Positions 3,974 to 42,333 of a DNA stretch of 43,932 bases are shown here, one piece after another (position 1 is the first letter of the stretch; every line of letters starts with the position of its first letter). The stretch is from a virus. A program made the position numbers and the translations under genes. The notes under the pieces were generated by a model. It ran no database searches. It saw nothing but the letters and a program-made list of their open reading frames with translations, and was not told the origin of the DNA. The DNA lies in the IMG/VR virus record IMGVR_UViG_3300048924_000317, positions 1 through 43,932 of that record; one strand, given 5' to 3'.

Positions 3974-4018
3974 GGTGCTTCTCCTTTGGGTGGTTGATTT
4001 CGAGGGGTTGCAGCCCCT
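3971..4018 (-). repeat. Duplicated translation-initiation leader, copy 2
   Basis: Second copy of the leader described at 3601-3650. The first 24 bases from the start codon are identical, then 6-7 bases differ, then the hairpin GAGGGGTTGCAGCCCCT is identical. The hairpin overlaps the final codons and stop of the primase-helicase gene. Confidence 0.8.
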
Positions 4019-6740
4019 ACACGCACTGGAAGACCCAGCAGCGAATGGTTTTAGGTTTATCGAAGGCGTCGACCTGGCGGGCCGAGTTGACGGGCTTGTT
4101 CGATTCCAGAAATTTGGGTGACTTGCTGGTCTTCAGCAGGCGTTTCAGATCGCTCAGCGGCGGCACCTGCTGCCGTTTGTTGGCAGCCATTTCCACAAAC
4201 TCGTTGAGGTTCACGGCGATCATCCCATCGCGACGTGCATGGTTCAGCGCGGCTTTCTCGTCCATGCCATTGAGGAATTCGTACAGGTCCCAAAACTCGC
4301 GCACGGTCGGGTGGTCGGCGTTGATTGCCTGCTGCCGCTCCAGGGCCATGCGGCTGATTTCTGCATGTGCCAGCGCCTTGCGGCGGTCACCGAGGGGCAC
4401 GACACCGGCCAACGCATCCACCAGGCTGCGCAGCTGGGCGTGGTTCTTAGCGATACGCACGGTGCGAACGCCAGGCTGGGCCAGCAGCTCCTGTTCGTAG
4501 CCGGAGGTGTTTTCCTCCATCAGGCGCATGGTTTCGGCTTCGCGTTGCAGCGCCTTGACCAGGAAGCCGCTGATGCTGTCCATCGGCATGCGCTCCAACT
4601 GCTCGGCGTACTGCTTGGTTTCCGGGGTGTGGTGTTCGCGTGTCAGGTGGACGTGGCAGATACGCTGCAGGATGGGTTCCGAAGCGTTGACCGGGTTGTT
4701 CTGAGCGATCAGCAGGGCGGCGCGGAACGGTGGTTCGTGGGTGTCGTTGCCGTTGTTCTTCACGCCGGTGGAGCGAACGCTACGGCCGTTGTAGGCGGTT
4801 TTGAGTTCGTCCCAGTCGAAGTGCTTAACCGGCTGGCCTTCCTTTTGTTCACGCTCGGATTCGATCAGCACCACCGGCAAGTTGCTGACCTGCGAGAAGT
4901 TGCGCGCGCGGCTGGCGGCGGTGGCTTTGGACGGATCAAAGCCTTCGTAATCAGTACGCCCGACCGATTTCCACAGCAGCTCTACCAGGGTGGTCTTGCC
5001 CGAGCCGGCTTCGCCCACCAGTTCCAGGAACATCAGTGACTTGTGGATCTGGCGGATCTGCTCGGCGTGCAGTGCGCCCAGCCACCAGGCCAGCACCACC
5101 ACGCCCTGGACGCCAAAGCAGCGCCAGTAAATGTCGAACCAACCTTCGTTGTAGGCATTCAGGTCGGTATTGATATGCAGCACCGGTGACTGGCTCTGCG
5201 ACTTGATGCTCAGCTTGCCTAGGTCGAAAAAATCTTCCTTGTTGCGCACCTGCACCTTGCCGCCGTGAAACGCCAGGTCGTTGAAGACATAGGCGCCATG
5301 GTCGCGGCTGTAGCCGATCCATTCGATGGTGTTGACGGTTTTCAGGCAGTCGAGCTGAGGCGCCAGAATTCGTTTCAGTTGCTGGGCGCTACCCTCGAAC
5401 ATCGCGCCGTTGGAGACGTTGAGCAGGCGGTTGGCGAACTCAGGTGCCGACGTGAGCTGCTTGGCCGTGAACGTGCTCTTGATGGCTGGCCCTTGCGGGC
5501 GCTCGATGCGGAAGTAGTACCAGGCCTCGTCGGTCAGGTCGTTGCGCATGTAGTACAGCGCCTGGAAATTACAGTTGGCGATGCTGGTCACTGAGCCGGA
5601 TTGGCGCAGGGCCTTGTAGCGACGCTGTTCCTCAGTGAGTAACTGATCTTCATGTCGGTCAGAGCTTTCCAGATCGCCCATGGCTCGGTCGTACTTATCA
5701 AGGTCCAACCGAAACCAGTACAGGCGCTTGCGGAATGTGAAGTTGAATTCCTTGCGCTCGTCGCGCAGGTAGATCAGGAAGCCCTTTTCCTCCGCCGAGT
5801 CAGCCAGTAGCAAATCGCCGTGGTGACGGGCTTCGTCGATATCCTGCTCGATCCGCTCGAAGCGTTTGTCATCACCCTCGATCGGTTTCCAGCGTAGGTG
5901 TAGGTCGTTCCAATCAACCTTTTTGCCGTGGGGCTGTGGGATCACCGCCGCCTTGCAGGTGAAGCCCAGGTCGCGTGCCTCTTTCGCCCAGCGGCGCATG
6001 TTGGCCTTGGCGACAGGCTCATTATCCAGTGCCCACACCAGCAGCGGCAAAGGCTTGTCGGCGTCGTGGCGCAGTTTGGCCAGGGCCTTGAGTGAATCGA
6101 TCGGGCAGGGCGCGCTGGACATCATCGACACGGCCGAGATGTCGTTATGCAGCAACGCGATGGCGTCGAAGATGCCTTCAGTTATCCAGAGTTCGTCGAC
6201 CTCCAGCAGGTCCACGCTCGGCGGGCACCACCAGACACCCTTGTAACCCGTCAAACCTTCGCCGGTAGGGCGGAAGCGCGCTTTCATCTTGCCGAAGCGG
6301 TCTGGCCGATCGATCAGGCGCTCCCAGTACCCACCTTTCTCCAGGGCGAAACGCACCGTGGCGCTGCCGATGTTCAGCCGACCATCCCAGTAGTTGTCCT
6401 GGGTGAACCAACCGGTGATCAGCTCAAATTTGAAGCCCCGCGCAAACTCAAGGTAGGCACGTGCCGTGGCAAGGGGGTTATCCGGCGTCGACGGGGCGGT
6501 CTTGCTCCAGTCGTTGAACAAGTCGTCGTAAACGTCCTTCACGTGGACGCGGTGGTCGCATTTTTCCGGCCGTCCGCAGATCAGCGTCCAAGGCGATTCG
6601 TAGAAGGTGTACAGGGTCTTCTGGCCACAGGCAGGGCAAACGCCCTTACGCATATAGTCGGTACCGCGCATGTGCTTGAGCTGGTAATCCCGCTCAATGC
6701 GTTGGATGACGTCGGCGCGCAGCCTTTCTTTCATTTCCAT
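4017..6740 (-). CDS. Phage DNA primase-helicase (zinc finger, Toprim, P-loop)
   Basis: 907 residues. A CxxC...C...C zinc ribbon lies at Cys35, Cys38, Cys55 and Cys61. A Toprim-like segment DELWITEGIFDAIALL lies near 181-197 (the E of TEG is catalytic in Toprim primases). A Walker A motif GEAGSGKTTL lies near 573-582, followed by a Walker B-like VVLIESE and an arginine-rich tail. It would open DNA and make primers for phage replication. P2 itself uses the nicking initiator gpA; no gpA-like gene is seen here, so replication probably starts differently. ATG at 6740, with Met3 a possible alternative. It is the largest gene of the early operon. Confidence 0.88.
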   Translation of the reverse strand: MEMKERLRADVIQRIERDYQLKHMRGTDYMRKGVCPACGQKTLYTFYESPWTLICGRPEKCDHRVHVKDVYDDLFNDWSKTAPSTPDNPLATARAYLEFARGFKFELITGWFTQDNYWDGRLNIGSATVRFALEKGGYWERLIDRPDRFGKMKARFRPTGEGLTGYKGVWWCPPSVDLLEVDELWITEGIFDAIALLHNDISAVSMMSSAPCPIDSLKALAKLRHDADKPLPLLVWALDNEPVAKANMRRWAKEARDLGFTCKAAVIPQPHGKKVDWNDLHLRWKPIEGDDKRFERIEQDIDEARHHGDLLLADSAEEKGFLIYLRDERKEFNFTFRKRLYWFRLDLDKYDRAMGDLESSDRHEDQLLTEEQRRYKALRQSGSVTSIANCNFQALYYMRNDLTDEAWYYFRIERPQGPAIKSTFTAKQLTSAPEFANRLLNVSNGAMFEGSAQQLKRILAPQLDCLKTVNTIEWIGYSRDHGAYVFNDLAFHGGKVQVRNKEDFFDLGKLSIKSQSQSPVLHINTDLNAYNEGWFDIYWRCFGVQGVVVLAWWLGALHAEQIRQIHKSLMFLELVGEAGSGKTTLVELLWKSVGRTDYEGFDPSKATAASRARNFSQVSNLPVVLIESEREQKEGQPVKHFDWDELKTAYNGRSVRSTGVKNNGNDTHEPPFRAALLIAQNNPVNASEPILQRICHVHLTREHHTPETKQYAEQLERMPMDSISGFLVKALQREAETMRLMEENTSGYEQELLAQPGVRTVRIAKNHAQLRSLVDALAGVVPLGDRRKALAHAEISRMALERQQAINADHPTVREFWDLYEFLNGMDEKAALNHARRDGMIAVNLNEFVEMAANKRQQVPPLSDLKRLLKTSKSPKFLESNKPVNSARQVDAFDKPKTIRCWVFQCV

Positions 6741-34193: not shown

Positions 34194-34871
34194 TTAGGTA
34201 GGCACTATTAAATTCTGACCTTGATTTTTAGCATTTCCGATAGCTGTTGTAACCCTAAACCATTCGAAGGCCTCAGTCGGTTCACCCTGATGAAACACCA
34301 TCTGCTCAGCACGCTGCAATGGCGTTGCCGGATCAATCCATTCCCGGGCCATCTTCGGTGCCAGTACCACCGGCCTTCGGTCATGAATGTCCACCATTCC
34401 ACCGGCACTGTTGGCGGTGATGATCACAAAGCCGTCATGCTCGCCTGGCCCTTCATCGGCGTCTGGTAATTGGCCGATGACCGCGCACAAGATTGGCGCA
34501 CCGTCCCGCCTGCGGATCAGATAAGGCTGTTTCTTCGGTCCACCTTCATCCACCCACTCAAACCAATTGTCGATAGGCGTGATCGCACGGTGCGGCCAGA
34601 TCGCCCGGAAGAATGGACCGTGGGCGACCTTCTCGACGCGTGCATTGATCGGTGCGGCGCGGTCTTTCGCCCAATGCGGTCGCCATCCCCAACGAACTGG
34701 ATCAGCGTGCAGCAGTTCACCTTGCAGGTGCAGCAATGCCACCTGAGTCGTCGGAGCAACGTTGTACCGCTCGATAGGTCGGTCACCCACCGAGTTTGCC
34801 AGGGCGTTAGGCATGCTCAGCGCCGCAACGAAGTCGTGGATTCCCCTGTACTGCGACAGCCTTCCGCACAT
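34194..34871 (-). CDS. SOS response-associated peptidase (SRAP, YedK/HMCES family)
   Basis: 225 residues from the ATG at 34871, giving the required MCGR start: Cys2 becomes the N-terminal catalytic residue that crosslinks to abasic sites in single-stranded DNA. YNVAPT, WGWRPHWAKD, INARVEKV and WFEWVD are all present; the active-site histidine lies in VDIHDRRPVV, a variant of the usual HxRMP. It is second in an operon under a LexA box at 35250. A phage-borne copy would protect replicating DNA after SOS induction. Confidence 0.93.
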   Translation of the reverse strand: MCGRLSQYRGIHDFVAALSMPNALANSVGDRPIERYNVAPTTQVALLHLQGELLHADPVRWGWRPHWAKDRAAPINARVEKVAHGPFFRAIWPHRAITPIDNWFEWVDEGGPKKQPYLIRRRDGAPILCAVIGQLPDADEGPGEHDGFVIITANSAGGMVDIHDRRPVVLAPKMAREWIDPATPLQRAEQMVFHQGEPTEAFEWFRVTTAIGNAKNQGQNLIVPT

Positions 34872-34896
34872 AGCCAAGCCCTCCTTCCGTTTGATC

Positions 34897-35235
34897 TTAG
34901 ACAATCGTGGTCGGTCGAGGTCTCATCTCGTTGACGATTCGCTTCAGGCCTTCGGCTTCACGCTGACTTACGTTCAGTGACGTCGTCAGGGTGTCGATCT
35001 GTTTTCGCATCTCAGCCGCTTCGCCGCCTCTCTGACGGAGGTATCCAGCGAACTCGGCGTTCTTCGCCTGGGTAGCCAGCAGCATCTGGCTGATTCCGAA
35101 GACATCCTCCCGCGCTTTGCGCAGTTGCACGTTCAGGTCCTGGATCTCGTTCTCCAGGAGGCGGCAGTGCTGTCGGTACATTTGCAATGGGGTAGGGAGG
35201 CCAAGCCAGCCGAGGGTGTCTTCATCGTTATTCAT
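34897..35235 (-). CDS. SOS-controlled coiled-coil hypothetical protein
   Basis: 112 residues. The N-terminus (DTLGWLGLPTPLQMYRQHCRLLENEI) is followed by a coiled coil (LNVQLRKAREDVFGISQML, MRKQIDTLTTSLNVSQREAEGLKRIV). No family recognised. It is the first gene after the LexA box at 35250 and ends 25 bp before the SRAP start, so both are presumably induced by DNA damage. Confidence 0.72.
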   Translation of the reverse strand: MNNDEDTLGWLGLPTPLQMYRQHCRLLENEIQDLNVQLRKAREDVFGISQMLLATQAKNAEFAGYLRQRGGEAAEMRKQIDTLTTSLNVSQREAEGLKRIVNEMRPRPTTIV

Positions 35236-35562: not shown

Positions 35563-35580
35563 TTCACCACCCGGCGCGCG

Positions 35581-35601
35581 CCGTCGTCCCCCCACCTCGC
35601 C
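35581..35601 (-). other. cos site of the prophage
   Basis: Minus strand GGCGAGGTGGGGGGACGACG(G). P2 cohesive ends begin GGCGAGGCGGGG, and phiCTX-like phages carry similar GC-rich ends. Orientation and place agree with P2: read on the minus strand the next phage genes are Q, P, O. This is where terminase would nick to give cohesive ends. The region from 35284 to 35757 around it holds no convincing gene. Confidence 0.7.
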
Positions 35602-35757
35602 TGCGGGCTAAATGGGTCGTTTTTTCTGCGCCCCTGCGGACCACTCCCGGCGGCTTAGGCTGGACGCTTGCTTGGCGTTGTGGGGAGGTTGAAAGCCTGC
35701 GGAACCCTGCACCGAGGGGGTATTTCTTCGAAAGGTCTGGATGCGTTGCTGTGCAGG

Positions 35758-36073
35758 TAGAGGGGGGGATTTCAAAAAGAGTAATTTCAGTAACCACGTC
35801 TGGGCAATGGGCTGGAGGCCGCGTATTCCGTGGGGTTCGGTATTACAAAAAGGAGTAACAGAGAAGTAATTGAAAAGGTAATTTTTTGACAAGCTATTGT
35901 TTTTAAAGGGTTTTTATAAAAATGAGAATTACGTTTATAAAGAGTAATCAGATTACTTCAATATTACTTAAAAATTACCTTTTGGCCGAAATGCAAAACC
36001 CTTTAATTTCAATGGATTGAGCGTAAAAAATGGTCAAGATTACTTATGTTACTCTTTTTTTTGCCCCCCTCTA
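35758..36073. repeat. Symmetric array of GTAAY iterons around an AT palindrome
   Basis: Thirteen GTAA(T/C) motifs (either strand) occur in 272 bp. Ten of them form mirrored groups: a pair at 35781 and 35790, and a triplet at 35855, 35866 and 35878. The reversed triplet is at 35952, 35963 and 35974, and the reversed pair at 36039 and 36048. The gaps between pair and triplet are 60 bp on both sides. The exact centre is the palindrome TTTTTATAAAAA (35911-35922). The outer ends carry TAGAGGGGGG and its complement. No gene is visible. Likely a protein-organised site (origin, partition or packaging). Confidence 0.8.
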
Positions 36074-36329: not shown

Positions 36330-36447
36330 TCGCTTTACGTCATATTCCTCTCGACACTATGCAGCCATGGCTGTTTTTAACATGCTCCAGAGTCTGACTA
36401 TCAAGAATTGATCGCACTTAATATTTTCTGCCAAACAAGAATGCAGA

Positions 36448-36593
36448 TCGATTAAAAATTAGACCCGCGACGACGTGCTGGCCAGTTTGCGCATTCCGCC
36501 GCAGCTGATGGGCATCGTGCCGCAGAACGCGGGTGGGTTTGGTTCGATCAGGGAGGCAGCGTAGATCTATGCCGCCAATGAACTGGAGCGAAT
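36448..36593 (+). pseudogene. Fragment of a second P2-like portal (Q) gene
   Basis: The frame reads SIKN-stop-TRDDVLASLRIPPQLMG, then IVPQNAGGFGSIREAA-stop-IYAANELERI. It matches residues ~275-320 of the resident portal (32830-32980) at roughly 88% of bases by eye, with two TAG codons. Homology stops sharply on both sides. A remnant of another P2-like prophage or of a recombination event, just outside the att site. Confidence 0.88.
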
Positions 36594-36660: not shown

Positions 36661-37488
36661 TCATCTCCCTAGGATTTTTTTCTTAACAAGGGGTTCTAAA
36701 GTGGTTATTTCAGCCGATTTGATAACATTTCCCAAATGCATCATTGCTGCAACTTGTACTGTTGGCGTTTGACCTAAAACTATGGCTCCAGTGTTTGTAA
36801 TTAATGGGCCTGCGTATAGAATGCCTACTAGTTTGATTCGAGTGGCTCCCATCATGTAGTTATTTGTTTTTCGATCTAAATATCCGTTACGGTCAAAAAC
36901 GAATACTGGTGAACCCGAAGATCCTGGAAAGCAAGCCATATCCACCATGAACTCTCTCTTGCCGTTATAGTTTTTAGCGAGAGATGATGCCGTAATACCT
37001 TTGCGCGATATCGGTAGATTATTTATTTCATCTGAAATTCCATTCGGACACCCAATCATAGTGACTTCTTCTATGGCGTCAAAGTCGTTCCACTCATCAT
37101 TTTTAGGTATTAATGATGGATCTAAAGGAACAATGAATAGAGGTGTTTGAAGGGCAATTGCATTATTTACAATGTCGCCAAATAATATTGCGCAGAGATC
37201 AATGTTGGGGTCAGGGTGTCGAATAATCCTGTTTTCTTGGAGATCCATAGCAAGGGTAATGTGTCTTCCTGAGGGCCCATTGCCCTCTGCTAAGTGATAT
37301 GTGACGTTGATGGCTTCATTGCCGTTTATGACATGATTGTTAGTGATAATTGCTATTGCGTCCCGTTCCTTGTCAATGGAAAATTTAAAAAAAAAGCCAG
37401 TTCCTGTACTTGCTGCCTTGCCGCCTTTTAAAGCAGTCAGCTTAGCTGTTGAATACAGCATTTGCTCCGCTACTGTTAGTGCTGTCAC
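36661..37488 (-). CDS. Trypsin-like serine protease, cytosolic
   Basis: 275 residues. The triad is readable as His52 in TNNHVI, an Asp in PNIDLCAI (~96) and Ser in FPGSSGSPVF (~194). GTGFFFKF at the start and MIGCPNG before the serine are typical of the trypsin-like (S1/HtrA-type) fold. No signal peptide or PDZ domain, so it probably acts in the cytosol. AT-rich, with no obvious partner gene. Trypsin-like peptidases occur in several prophage and defence-island systems as effector domains. Whether this one is single-gene is unknown. Confidence 0.85.
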   Translation of the reverse strand: MTALTVAEQMLYSTAKLTALKGGKAASTGTGFFFKFSIDKERDAIAIITNNHVINGNEAINVTYHLAEGNGPSGRHITLAMDLQENRIIRHPDPNIDLCAILFGDIVNNAIALQTPLFIVPLDPSLIPKNDEWNDFDAIEEVTMIGCPNGISDEINNLPISRKGITASSLAKNYNGKREFMVDMACFPGSSGSPVFVFDRNGYLDRKTNNYMMGATRIKLVGILYAGPLITNTGAIVLGQTPTVQVAAMMHLGNVIKSAEITTLEPLVKKKILGR

Positions 37489-37932: not shown

Positions 37933-38373
37933 AGCAGTGGCATCTCTGGGATTTGCGAAAGCTAGCGAAAAAGGGGCAGGGGTTCGTGCGTGAGTGTCGT
38001 GCTGGTACGAAAGTGGTACAGATGGGTGGCGAAGGCGCTGCAGTGACCGTTCTGTGAGGCCTATAGGATTAGGCGTTCCAATCCATCATCGGGGCGACGG
38101 AGAAGCGGCGGGAGAGTGCCTGCGGCGGTGCTGAGTTTAGCTGCATTGGAATTTAAATTACATAAATCGAAGGGCAGCAGAATAGCAGGGATGGAAGAGG
38201 AGAGCATGGCTAGCCGTGTTCTATTGGTGCCGTACGAAGCAAATTAATCTTTCTTGTTGCTGAGATTTGGCGTGATGCGTAAAAAAAGCTATGCGCTATT
38301 GAAAGGCCATCATCATATGATTAACCTAGCAGCACCTAGCTCATAGGGAATCCACGAAAGGGACGAGTTCGTA
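37933..38373. other. Gene-free 441-bp stretch with repeat copy A
   Basis: No convincing gene. The stretch includes repeat copy A (38077-38116) and a hairpin GGATT / AATCC just before it (~38067-38085). It also has a 13-codon frame MASRVLLVPYEAN behind GAGGAG (~38206) and the promoter region of the ATPase gene. The part after ~38140 is AT-rich like the following genes. Confidence 0.5.
38077..38116. repeat. Interspersed repeat copy A
   Basis: Begins TCCAATCCATCATCGGGGCG and continues ACGGAGAAGCGGCGGGAGAG. 33 of 40 bases match copy B at 40289, and the first 22 match copy C at 41981 at 20 positions. A, B and C separate the ATPase/nuclease pair from the antitoxin/DUF4393 block and from the chromosome. 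Confidence 0.65.
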
Positions 38374-39672
38374 ATGGAAAAGCTGATAATTGAAGATTTT
38401 CTATCTATAAAAAAGGCTGAAGTTAATCTAAAAAGAATTAATATATTTATTGGTCCACAGGCTAAAGGGAAGAGTTTAATATCTAAGCTGATTAGCTATT
38501 TTAAAGAGGTTCCTGTAGCGCTGCAGGAGGCCGGCATCGATGAGAAGTCTAAGCGTCAGTTTGATGCTGACTTGAGAGCTAAGTTTGAAAGTATTTTTCC
38601 GAGATATGGTTGGGAGAAGTCAACTTTTAATATATCGTATACGTGCGGTAGTTACAGTATTTCGATTTCTCATGGGAAAGTAAATTCCCAGTATAAGTGG
38701 TGTGTAAAGTATTCTGAAAGTGTACTAAAGTCCTTGTCTTTGGCTAGAAAAATTTATAAAAAAGCAATGTCCTCAGAGGATGGGGATGGGAAGTATCTTT
38801 ACAAGATTAGGTCTAACGCTATTAGAGAGTTGCGAGATGCGATCGTTTCTTCGCTATATGCGGATGCGCCAGATAAAAAGCTAGAGCAGGTATTTTATAT
38901 TCCTGCGGGAAGGTCTTTTTTTGCAAATTTGCAAAAAAACGTATTTTCGTTTATATCTTCTAGTATACCGATAGATCATTTTTTAAAAGAGTTTGGTGCA
39001 ATATACGAAAGAACTCGAGAACGAGGTTTTTTAGAGTTTTCCATATCTAAGCGGCCTAAAAGTGTAGAGAAGATTGTCAACGATTTGATTTGTGGTAGCT
39101 ATCTTTCTGAGAAAGGGCAGGATTGGATTGTTAGTCCGCAAGGTAGGGTTAATCTTTCAAACTCAAGTTCTGGCCAGCAGGAGGTTCTACCTATGGCCAT
39201 GGTTCTGTCGACTTGGCCTTATGCTGTAGGGCCTAGCTTTACAAGAAGTTTTATAGTTGAAGAGCCCGAGGCGCACTTGTTTCCTATTGCGCAGGGGCAA
39301 ATAGTTTCATTAATTGCCTCTGCATATAATGCTCGCGATGGTTTGGGTAGTTACACCATTACTACTCATAGTCCATACATTTTGACGGCTTTTAATAATC
39401 TTATTCAGGCTGGTAATGTTTTAGCGAAATCAAGCGAGAAAGAACAGTTTGACAAGTTGTTTAGCGTTGTTCCGCCTGAGCAGGTGGTTAGGTTTCAGGA
39501 TGTCACTGCCTATTTTGTTGATAAGGGAGTTGTGAAAGAAATAATGGACCACGGAATGAGGTTGATAGACGCAAGTGCGATAGATAATGTCTCCGAACAT
39601 TTTGCACAGCGCTTTGAGACGTTGATTGATCTTGAAATGGAGTTGGAGCAGCATTCGGAGGGGGCTGAGTAA
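38374..39672 (+). CDS. AAA/ABC-type ATPase of a putative defence pair
   Basis: 432 residues. It begins MEKLIIEDFLSIKKAEVNL, the usual opening of AAA_15/OLD-like ATPases. Walker A is GPQAKGKS (27-34). A signature loop NSSSGQQEVLPM lies near 262-273, Walker B FIVEEPEAHLFP near 293-304 and the H-switch TTHSPY near 330-335. The ~240-residue insert between Walker A and signature is helical. There is no Toprim domain at the C-terminus, so it is not a complete OLD nuclease. Its TAA overlaps the ATG of the next gene, so the two are co-translated. AT-rich, typical of transferred defence genes. Confidence 0.88.
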   Translation: MEKLIIEDFLSIKKAEVNLKRINIFIGPQAKGKSLISKLISYFKEVPVALQEAGIDEKSKRQFDADLRAKFESIFPRYGWEKSTFNISYTCGSYSISISHGKVNSQYKWCVKYSESVLKSLSLARKIYKKAMSSEDGDGKYLYKIRSNAIRELRDAIVSSLYADAPDKKLEQVFYIPAGRSFFANLQKNVFSFISSSIPIDHFLKEFGAIYERTRERGFLEFSISKRPKSVEKIVNDLICGSYLSEKGQDWIVSPQGRVNLSNSSSGQQEVLPMAMVLSTWPYAVGPSFTRSFIVEEPEAHLFPIAQGQIVSLIASAYNARDGLGSYTITTHSPYILTAFNNLIQAGNVLAKSSEKEQFDKLFSVVPPEQVVRFQDVTAYFVDKGVVKEIMDHGMRLIDASAIDNVSEHFAQRFETLIDLEMELEQHSEGAE

Positions 39673-40094
39673 TGACTGCGCACTGCATTGTCCCAACAAA
39701 AAATCCAATTTTAACATTTGAAGAACAAAAGTCGGTTTTTCAAGTTTTAAATAAAGGGCGCAGAAATCTTGAGCGGCATCAGGTAGATGGGTGTTTGATA
39801 GTTGATGGTATTAAATGTGATTGGTTGCTGGTTGATACTGATAGTGGTAGGGAGATATATATAGAGCTAAAAGGGTCTGATATTAAACATGCGGTGGATC
39901 AGATTTGTGAAACTATAGGTGCTCTTACTAAGAGTGCAAAAGATGTAAAGTTGGGTTACGTTATTTGCACTAAGTGTCCTCTGGATTCTACTGCGGTCCA
40001 GCGATTAAAAAAAGCCGTACTGCTTAGTCATAAGTTAAGGTTGAGAGTCCAAAAGACAATTCATCGTGAGGATATTGAGGCAATGATCGCTTGA
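39672..40094 (+). CDS. Small PD-(D/E)XK-like nuclease paired with the ATPase
   Basis: 140 residues starting MTAHCIVPTKNPILTFEEQ. Asp50 (KCDWLLVD), then Glu65-x-Lys67 (YIELKG) and a following helix with Gln78 (AVDQICETIG) reproduce the PD-(D/E)XK nuclease core. This call is from the motif pattern only. It begins within the ATPase stop codon (TAATG), so the products are probably made together and may form a complex in which ATP state gates DNA or RNA cleavage. It differs from the HNH partner of Septu and from the Toprim partner of PARIS. Confidence 0.75.
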   Translation: MTAHCIVPTKNPILTFEEQKSVFQVLNKGRRNLERHQVDGCLIVDGIKCDWLLVDTDSGREIYIELKGSDIKHAVDQICETIGALTKSAKDVKLGYVICTKCPLDSTAVQRLKKAVLLSHKLRLRVQKTIHREDIEAMIA

Positions 40095-40926: not shown

Positions 40927-41715
40927 ATGGATGTGCCTAAGATAGAGATTAAGTTGGACGCGACTAAAGTTGTTGAAGATGTATATGAGGATGGAGTGGC
41001 CGACGTATTAAAAGAGGTATCTACTATTGGCGTAGATGCCGTAAAAACGTTGAAGTTGGCGTTGTTTCCTCTTCAGTTGGGTGCTTTTTTTCAAGATAGA
41101 TTGACACGTTATTTTTCAGAGGCATTGCACAGGATTCCTTTGGAGCATCGAGTTGCTCCTATCGAATCAACAGTGCTCCAAATATCAGAAAAGCTGAGGG
41201 TGCAGGAAGAGGGAGGTATAATTACTGAGATGTACGTTGCACTGCTTGAATGTGCATTTGATAAGCGGCGTTTTGGCCAGGCTCATCCTTCGTTTGTGAA
41301 TATTGTTACGCAGCTTAGTGCTGATGAAGCAGTTTTGCTTGATCATATTTCTACTGCAAATGCCAAAATATACTTTGGGAGAGAGCCAATAGATTGGGCG
41401 CAGACGTCGAGCTCTATTGAGAGGCATTTTTCGGAAGTAATGTTTAAGTCCGTGAAATTGGATTGGCAGTTTTTTATAAATCCGGACGTCCTTGCTGAGC
41501 CTTCTTATTTGCAAATTTATATTGAGCACCTGGTATCAATGGGGCTTGTTAGTTATGACAACGATCGACCAACTGAATTGGCGCAGGCGTTTGAATCTAT
41601 CAATGGTCAATTGCAACCTGCGTGGGCAATACGGCTCTCGAGATTTGGGAAATTATTCCACCAGGCATGCACAGGAGAGGCGATCTTACGAGCAACTGCT
41701 TCAGATAGATTGTGA
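40927..41715 (+). CDS. DUF4393/Abi-alpha-like protein
   Basis: 262 residues. The opening VEDVYEDGVADVLKEVSTIG and GAFFQDRLTRYFSEALHRIP, then MYVALLECAFDKRRFGQAHPSFVNIVTQLSADEAVLL, follow the DUF4393 pattern (P-x-M-F--LL--S-D----AHPSF--I--QL--DEA). Members have been linked to abortive infection (Abi-alpha), though the mechanism is not known to me. No membrane helix beyond one weakly hydrophobic segment. AT-rich, single gene, with a probable own promoter. Sits between repeat copies B and C. Confidence 0.75.
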   Translation: MDVPKIEIKLDATKVVEDVYEDGVADVLKEVSTIGVDAVKTLKLALFPLQLGAFFQDRLTRYFSEALHRIPLEHRVAPIESTVLQISEKLRVQEEGGIITEMYVALLECAFDKRRFGQAHPSFVNIVTQLSADEAVLLDHISTANAKIYFGREPIDWAQTSSSIERHFSEVMFKSVKLDWQFFINPDVLAEPSYLQIYIEHLVSMGLVSYDNDRPTELAQAFESINGQLQPAWAIRLSRFGKLFHQACTGEAILRATASDRL

Positions 41716-42120: not shown

Positions 42121-42333
42121 GCGGCCGGATGTGGAAGTCCGTACCAAGCTAAGACGCAATCGTCACAAACACCTACCGGCGTTTTTTTACGCCTGTATCA
42201 TGTGTTTCGGCGGCTGTGCGCGGGGCACTTCGGTGCGCCGGGTCCTTAGCCCTGGTCTTCCACACCTGCGTACGGCTGCCACCCTCATGTGGAAGTGAGT
42301 TTGGCAGTTCCTGAACAGTTAAGGAGCTTCGCC
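42121..42333 (+). ncRNA. Structured 5' leader of the DUF6124-like gene
   Basis: Contains a hairpin with a cUUCGg tetraloop (GCAC-TTCG-GTGC, 42225-42236, extended by CGG/CCG). Three complementary segments can switch partners: TGTGGAAG (42130-42137), CTTCCACA (42257-42264) and TGTGGAAG (42288-42295). AAGGAG for the gene lies at ~42321. The mutually exclusive pairings look like a regulatory leader. I believe similar leaders precede paralogues in other Pseudomonas genomes, but that is from memory. Confidence 0.5.

Follow-up and report, generated by a model that had tools for sequence, protein, structure and literature searches.

Layout of a GTAAY array in a P2-like prophage

The DNA analysed here, referred to as the window, is the complete 43,932-nucleotide stretch of the IMG/VR virus record IMGVR_UViG_3300048924_000317, a P2-like, Citexvirus-type Pseudomonas prophage. 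Our subject is an array of 13 GTAAY sites (iterons) found within 35781-36052 of the window, a putative replication origin, together with the product of the rep gene, a primase/helicase proposed as its initiator. A first-pass annotation made from the letters of the sequence had described the segment as a mirror-symmetric array. Its elements are as follows.

35758-36073, no strand: whole array, putative replication origin
35781, 35790, 35855, 35866, 35878 and 35944: starts of the GTAAY sites on the + strand
35842, 35928, 35952, 35963, 35974, 36039 and 36048: starts of the GTAAY sites on the - strand
35758-35767, + strand: left flanking inverted repeat TAGAGGGGGG
35781-35794, + strand: left outer iteron pair, GTAAT at 35781-35785 and GTAAC at 35790-35794, 9-bp spacing, positions kept in relatives
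35842-35846, - strand: inverted iteron flanking the left triplet on its outer side, asymmetric, conserved
35855-35882, + strand: left iteron triplet (35855, 35866, 35878), spacing of 11 and 12 bp
35890-35902, - strand: IHF-like site AAACAATAGCTTG, one mismatch to WATCAANNNNTTR, offset +109
35911-35922, no strand: central AT palindrome TTTTTATAAAAA, within the least stable part of the array, the likely unwinding element (predicted)
35928-35932, - strand: inner inverted iteron, asymmetric, conserved in the TAAY class
35944-35948, + strand: inverted iteron on the inner side of the right triplet, asymmetric, conserved
35952-35978, - strand: right iteron triplet (35952, 35963, 35974), 11-bp spacing
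36039-36052, - strand: right outer iteron pair (36039, 36048), 9-bp spacing
36064-36073, - strand: right flanking inverted repeat CCCCCCTCTA, which is TAGAGGGGGG on the - strand

Five pairs of sites are mirrored, with start and end positions summing to 71833, 71833, 71833, 71833 and 71834, which reproduces the centre at 35916.5 and the four exact pairs and one pair off by one that had been reported. The gaps between outer pairs and triplets measure 60 bp on both sides, as claimed, the perfect palindrome TTTTTATAAAAA sits on the centre, and TAGAGGGGGG and CCCCCCTCTA form a perfect inverted pair at the ends. The description as a mirror-symmetric array holds for these five pairs and fails on the site count, which is 13 and not 10: three additional sites (-35842, -35928 and +35944) depart from exact mirror symmetry. 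These three sites are kept in relatives, and the array thus has a polarity.

Neither 20,000 dinucleotide shuffles, which reached at most 2 mirrored pairs, nor 20,000 runs placing 13 sites at random produced five. The next-densest GTAAY stretch of the window holds 5 sites per approximately 316 bp compared to 13 in the array, and the left-triplet pattern occurs a single time in the window. The stability profile places the highest AT content of the array at its centre; GC skew shows no clear inflection at the array.

A spacing template shared among relatives

A 351-bp segment containing the array was searched at the DNA level, as the first-pass annotation had suggested. No plasmid matched, and among phages only Dobby and one other phage did so, at the homologous place. 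With matches limited to Dobby-type records, DNA similarity alone would miss the family, which was found by k-mer and template scans. Dobby, Sirocco and D14A have the same layout with the motif GGTAAT (site positions were compared, not letters). About 22 of 80 IMG/VR loci retrieved via their portal protein carry the same offsets with GTAAY, and other loci whose portals resemble the query equally well show these offsets with the motif GGTTAG. Across Dobby and many IMG/VR relatives, the 13 positions of the template vary by no more than 1-3 bp. Occupancy is 13/13 in close relatives, including the three sites that break the mirror, and at least 7 positions in every scored array of both motif classes; sites +9 and -147 are weak or lost in the GGTTAG class. 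The conserved entity is a template with polarity, not a perfect mirror. Loss of spacing and symmetry in relatives had been named beforehand as the outcome that would speak against a functional array; the spacing is kept.

Other features of the window are more variable. Neither the central palindrome nor the G-run at the ends is conserved as sequence in relatives, which keep central AT-richness and some flanking inverted repeat; in several of them (L031, L033, L018 and others) these repeats differ by phage yet stay palindromic across the two arms. The IHF-like site at offset +109 matches the consensus perfectly in several relatives. A perfect IHF consensus lies anywhere in the array in 37% of 38 arrays, counting related arrays separately, versus 3% of block shuffles.

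The conserved position also bears on the suggestion, made in the first-pass annotation, that the segment is a non-autonomous transposon or miniature inverted-repeat transposable element with several transposase sites per end. The inverted ends fit such an element, but the record holds a single copy, its ends are not conserved, and the array keeps the same place in orthologous phages despite diverged sequence, all of which makes a transposon extremely improbable.

More distant relatives were reached through the protein. A tblastn search of annotated phages recovered this Rep, with identity as low as 31%, in records named for Halomonas, Stenotrophomonas, Pseudomonas, Escherichia, Microcystis and others, and de novo word scans detected arrays with AGGTAA, TGACA, TCACA, GTAAC/GTTAC, GGAACA and TGGAAG. 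The template holds in distant phages that use a different motif (GGTTAG, TGACA, TCACA, GTTAC and GGTAA): 8/8 positions fit in the Halomonas phage, 10/11 in UFJF, 9/12 in ESSI2, 12/13 in 2F_1, 12/12 in Dobby and 10/10 in a GGTTAG example, fits that were never reached in 2,000 random placements for each of the six. ESSI2 has an inner gap shorter by about one helical turn, and a scan for ESSI2-type arrays found them in L163 and L164 only, most other contigs probably stopping before the array. Smp131 fits well solely when its array is reversed (9/11). The better-fitting orientation of the array matches the strand of rep in 7/7 phages, one of which has its portal gene turned.

In a further branch around phage phi3, which includes Pseudomonas, Stutzerimonas, Microbulbifer, Hahella, Endozoicomonas and others, arrays of several motifs are located roughly 30-150 bp past the 3' end of rep, and not beside the terminase genes. 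Exact mirror symmetry is seen in phi3, Hahella, Endozoicomonas and one Microbulbifer locus; a viral scan with the phi3 Rep gave one locus. The open-access literature passages on Smp131, Dobby and P4-like satellites do not describe the array, and an earlier description elsewhere is possible.

Co-inheritance of the array with Rep

The proposed initiator and its candidate iteron-binding domain are located as follows.

4017-6740, - strand: Rep, PHROG 1139 primase/helicase with Zn finger, Toprim, AAA-type helicase and C-terminal domain
4020-4310, - strand: Rep C-terminal domain, residues 811-907, modelled as a helix-strand-helix-helix-hairpin resembling a winged helix, proposed to bind the iterons

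Rep is present in 47 of the 50 relatives scanned. P2 gpA (PF05840) was found in neither the window, which agrees with the earlier remark that this phage lacks gene A, nor any of the 50 relatives. A model of Rep was built by AlphaFold2 on 36 sequences, with a mean predicted local distance difference test (pLDDT) score of 83.4. The best-matching solved structures were Cch of the staphylococcal cassette chromosome mec (SCCmec; E 8.6e-16) and Rep of the Staphylococcus aureus pathogenicity island (SaPI) SaPIbov1 (2.1e-11), followed by DnaG primases. The predicted fold matches 5dgk and 8tch; sequence profiles give no SaPI Rep match, and sequence-level searches gave no link from Rep to solved initiators. 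Phages with GGTTAG arrays carry a Rep class with a zinc-ribbon insertion (CxxC...CxxC) ahead of the C-terminal domain (L117, L152 and others, 952-965 aa). Separately, five records (G003, G025, G042, G046 and G047) have a second open reading frame of approximately 280-320 aa beside rep which matches Rep residues 528-795, a partial helicase copy.

Changes of motif class were counted on protein trees of 24-31 records each. A single change is needed for each part of Rep, whereas the portal tree takes 6, that of the large terminase 7 and that of the integrase 3; shuffling the labels on the Rep tree gives at least 5 changes. Array distance correlates with the distance of the Rep C-terminus (rho 0.58, Mantel 0/1000) and N-terminus (0.56). 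For the other proteins no correlation is seen, with values of 0.02-0.06 overall: 0.06 for the portal, 0.03 for the terminase and, among the 24 records with an integrase, 0.06 for that protein. Motif and array sequence are co-inherited with Rep, and not with integrase, portal or terminase. On the circular map the integrase gene lies, judging from gene order, between the array and rep, so that simple physical linkage is a weak explanation.

These results bear on two explanations suggested by what lies next to the array.

35570-35645, + strand: cos-like block, putative cos, resembling by eye the corresponding stretch of Dobby, Sirocco and D14A
38078-38118, + strand: putative right att core CCAATCCATCATCGGGGCGACGGAGAAGCGGCGGGAGAGTG, an isolated conserved block common to five relatives (L008, L018, L036, L043 and L065)

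The array sits between the two, about 150-200 bp from the cos-like block and about 2 kb from the putative att core (~38078-38118), in line with the position first reported, between cos and the right att site. Proximity to the cos-like block would suit a packaging or terminase-binding element. However, the array tracks neither the terminase (rho 0.03; 7 changes) nor the portal (0.06; 6 changes), and in the phi3 branch it adjoins rep and not the terminase genes; a role in packaging, one of the readings entertained by the first-pass annotation, is accordingly left without a co-varying partner and seems highly improbable. The same low probability applies to integrase arm-type sites or accessory attP DNA. 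The Citexvirus array is on the att-proximal side, and P2-type integrases use repeated arm sites (PMC3931495), but divergence of the array shows no relation to that of the integrase (rho 0.06; 3 changes), one motif class co-occurs with different integrase types, and both the distance to the putative att core and the place of the phi3-branch array beside rep argue against this role.

Several other genes and remnants surround the array. A portal gene fragment with an in-frame stop (36430-36589), 87-91% identical to the 3' part of the portal gene of close relatives, lies to its right and left of the putative att core, and a protein with an SRAP (SOS response associated peptidase) domain is encoded between portal and cos-like block (34194-34904, - strand). 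A trypsin-like protein (36661-37488, - strand) gives a strong match (2.7e-101) to PDC-S45, a candidate defence family. To the right of the putative att core are defence-like genes, namely an AAA_15 gene that matches PDC-M29A, next to a gene weakly resembling PDC-M29B (38374-40094, + strand), and an Abi_alpha/PDC-S47 gene (40927-41715, + strand), as well as a C4 antisense RNA (42203-42286, + strand; Rfam RF01695, 54.2 bits) known from P1/P7-type phages. The record start truncates an integrase fragment (1-337), placing the left att end outside the window.

A putative replication origin and its counterparts

We consider that the array is very probably the replication origin of the phage, bound by Rep and opened at its AT-rich centre, on the comparative evidence and the predicted Rep fold. 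An initiator-bound origin is favoured because the geometry is conserved, the array is co-inherited with Rep and the phi3 branch places it 3' of rep, and because gpA was not detected while the Rep fold matches the SaPI and SCCmec initiator helicases. Two features of iteron-type origins are found here: short repeated sites are clustered beside an AT-rich region, and a candidate initiator encoded in cis, Rep, co-varies with the iterons. The comparative evidence thus supports the initiator-bound origin first proposed from the sequence, whose function as an origin we infer.

More specifically, Rep would bind the GTAAY iterons, probably via its C-terminal domain, and would assemble on the two oppositely oriented iteron sets. 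Bending of the centre may be assisted by the IHF-like site, which lies inside the left triplet. The triplets are separated by an AT-rich spacer that would then melt, helicases would be loaded, and Rep itself would prime synthesis, such that origin-specific replication would replace the gene-A rolling circle of P2. Binding, melting, initiation, loading of two hexamers, IHF action and bidirectionality are all steps that we infer.

A number of observations weigh against Rep-bound initiation at the array. Several Rep-bearing relatives lack the array; in most cases the contig stops close to the portal gene, yet L052 and L080 extend 4-5 kb past it and no array was found. In the phi3 branch most CGGAACA and CCTTCCA examples did no better than random in a mirror test at +/-1 bp; since strict mirror symmetry is often absent there, it is not proposed here as a family-wide property. 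Within the Citexviruses the motif switched a single time on the Rep tree, and the N-terminal, helicase and C-terminal parts of Rep track the array about equally, so the part contacting DNA is not singled out. The Rep C-termini of the window and Dobby are about half identical; the motif is nonetheless common to both. A fold search with the C-terminal part alone was not significant, and profile searches provided no sequence link between Rep and SaPI Rep. Finally, a small rep-linked gene co-segregating with Rep may be the partner of the array instead.

Such a gene would also suit a partition centromere or a looping operator of another DNA-binding protein from the early region, for which phased, facing sites are well arranged. 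The array follows directly after rep in the phi3 branch, however, and no ParA or ParB was recognised among the window proteins scanned, which do not comprise every open reading frame; the centromere proposed in the first-pass annotation has no co-varying partner, and we rate this group of explanations as very unlikely. Co-inheritance with Rep suits any locus that Rep binds, including a secondary or replication-control locus (incompatibility-like) with initiation elsewhere, and P4 uses separate ori and crr elements. Against such a control locus, the window has no second motif cluster, and an AT-rich core between facing iteron sets is what tested origins of phage-inducible chromosomal islands (PICIs) have; we judge it unlikely, though less so than the other alternatives.

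For the favoured reading as a Rep-bound origin, a broader proposal stands at about even chances: that the arrays form an undescribed, widespread class of two-sided origins with fixed positions and polarity, in which the letters change with the initiator, two Rep assemblies are loaded face to face on a bent AT-rich core, and the gpA rolling-circle origin is replaced in many P2-like phages. The array offers a testable origin for a large group of P2-like phages without a detected gene A. It also offers a natural series of origins, one geometry with many motifs, each with its likely initiator, which is suited to asking how a primase/helicase reads an origin, why spacing and polarity stay fixed while letters vary, and how helicases are loaded at two-sided origins.

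Among known systems, P2 nicks an origin inside gene A for rolling-circle replication. That origin and the array, as read here, are both replication starts of P2-like phages sharing the same morphogenetic module, and the difference lies in gpA (PF05840), missing from the results for the window and the 50 relatives. P4, with its alpha protein and ori/crr (crr is named as a P4 site in PMC6092414), likewise belongs to the P2 world; the window Rep was unmatched to P4 alpha in the searches made, in that no P4 alpha family is named in its Pfam or PHROG results, and no direct comparison with P4 alpha was made. SCCmec Cch is the top structural match to the window Rep. Cch2, likewise from an SCCmec helicase locus, reads short iterons 3' of its gene via a C-terminal domain (PMC7581432), at a site with three direct-repeat iterons rather than a mirrored 13-site array.

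The array also resembles the origins of PICIs and SaPIs (SaPIbov1, E. coli PICIs). In PICI origins, two iteron sets flank an AT-rich region and, together with rep, support plasmid maintenance (PMC6092414); in SaPIs, the Rep C-terminus recognises iterons adjoining rep (PMC7581432). The window array likewise consists of two iteron sets flanking an AT-rich region, the origin adjoins rep in the phi3 branch, and PICI/SaPI systems have a cognate Rep helicase that reads the origin by its C-terminus and a primase that accompanies Rep or is fused to it (PMC6092414, PMC7581432). In contrast, the window array (35.8 kb) is not directly 3' of rep (4.0-6.7 kb on the linear record), the array in the window's branch lies beyond int/att relative to rep, and one half of the window Rep is a DnaG-type primase, its tie to SaPI Rep being the predicted fold only. 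By analogy, the array would function as PICI origins do; we stop short of assigning it to them, given its position and the structural nature of the Rep link. The comparison ties full phages to a replication style described for PICIs. What is new here is that a fixed multi-site geometry, a 13-site spacing template, persists while the motif changes, and that it does so in full P2-like phages and not in satellites.
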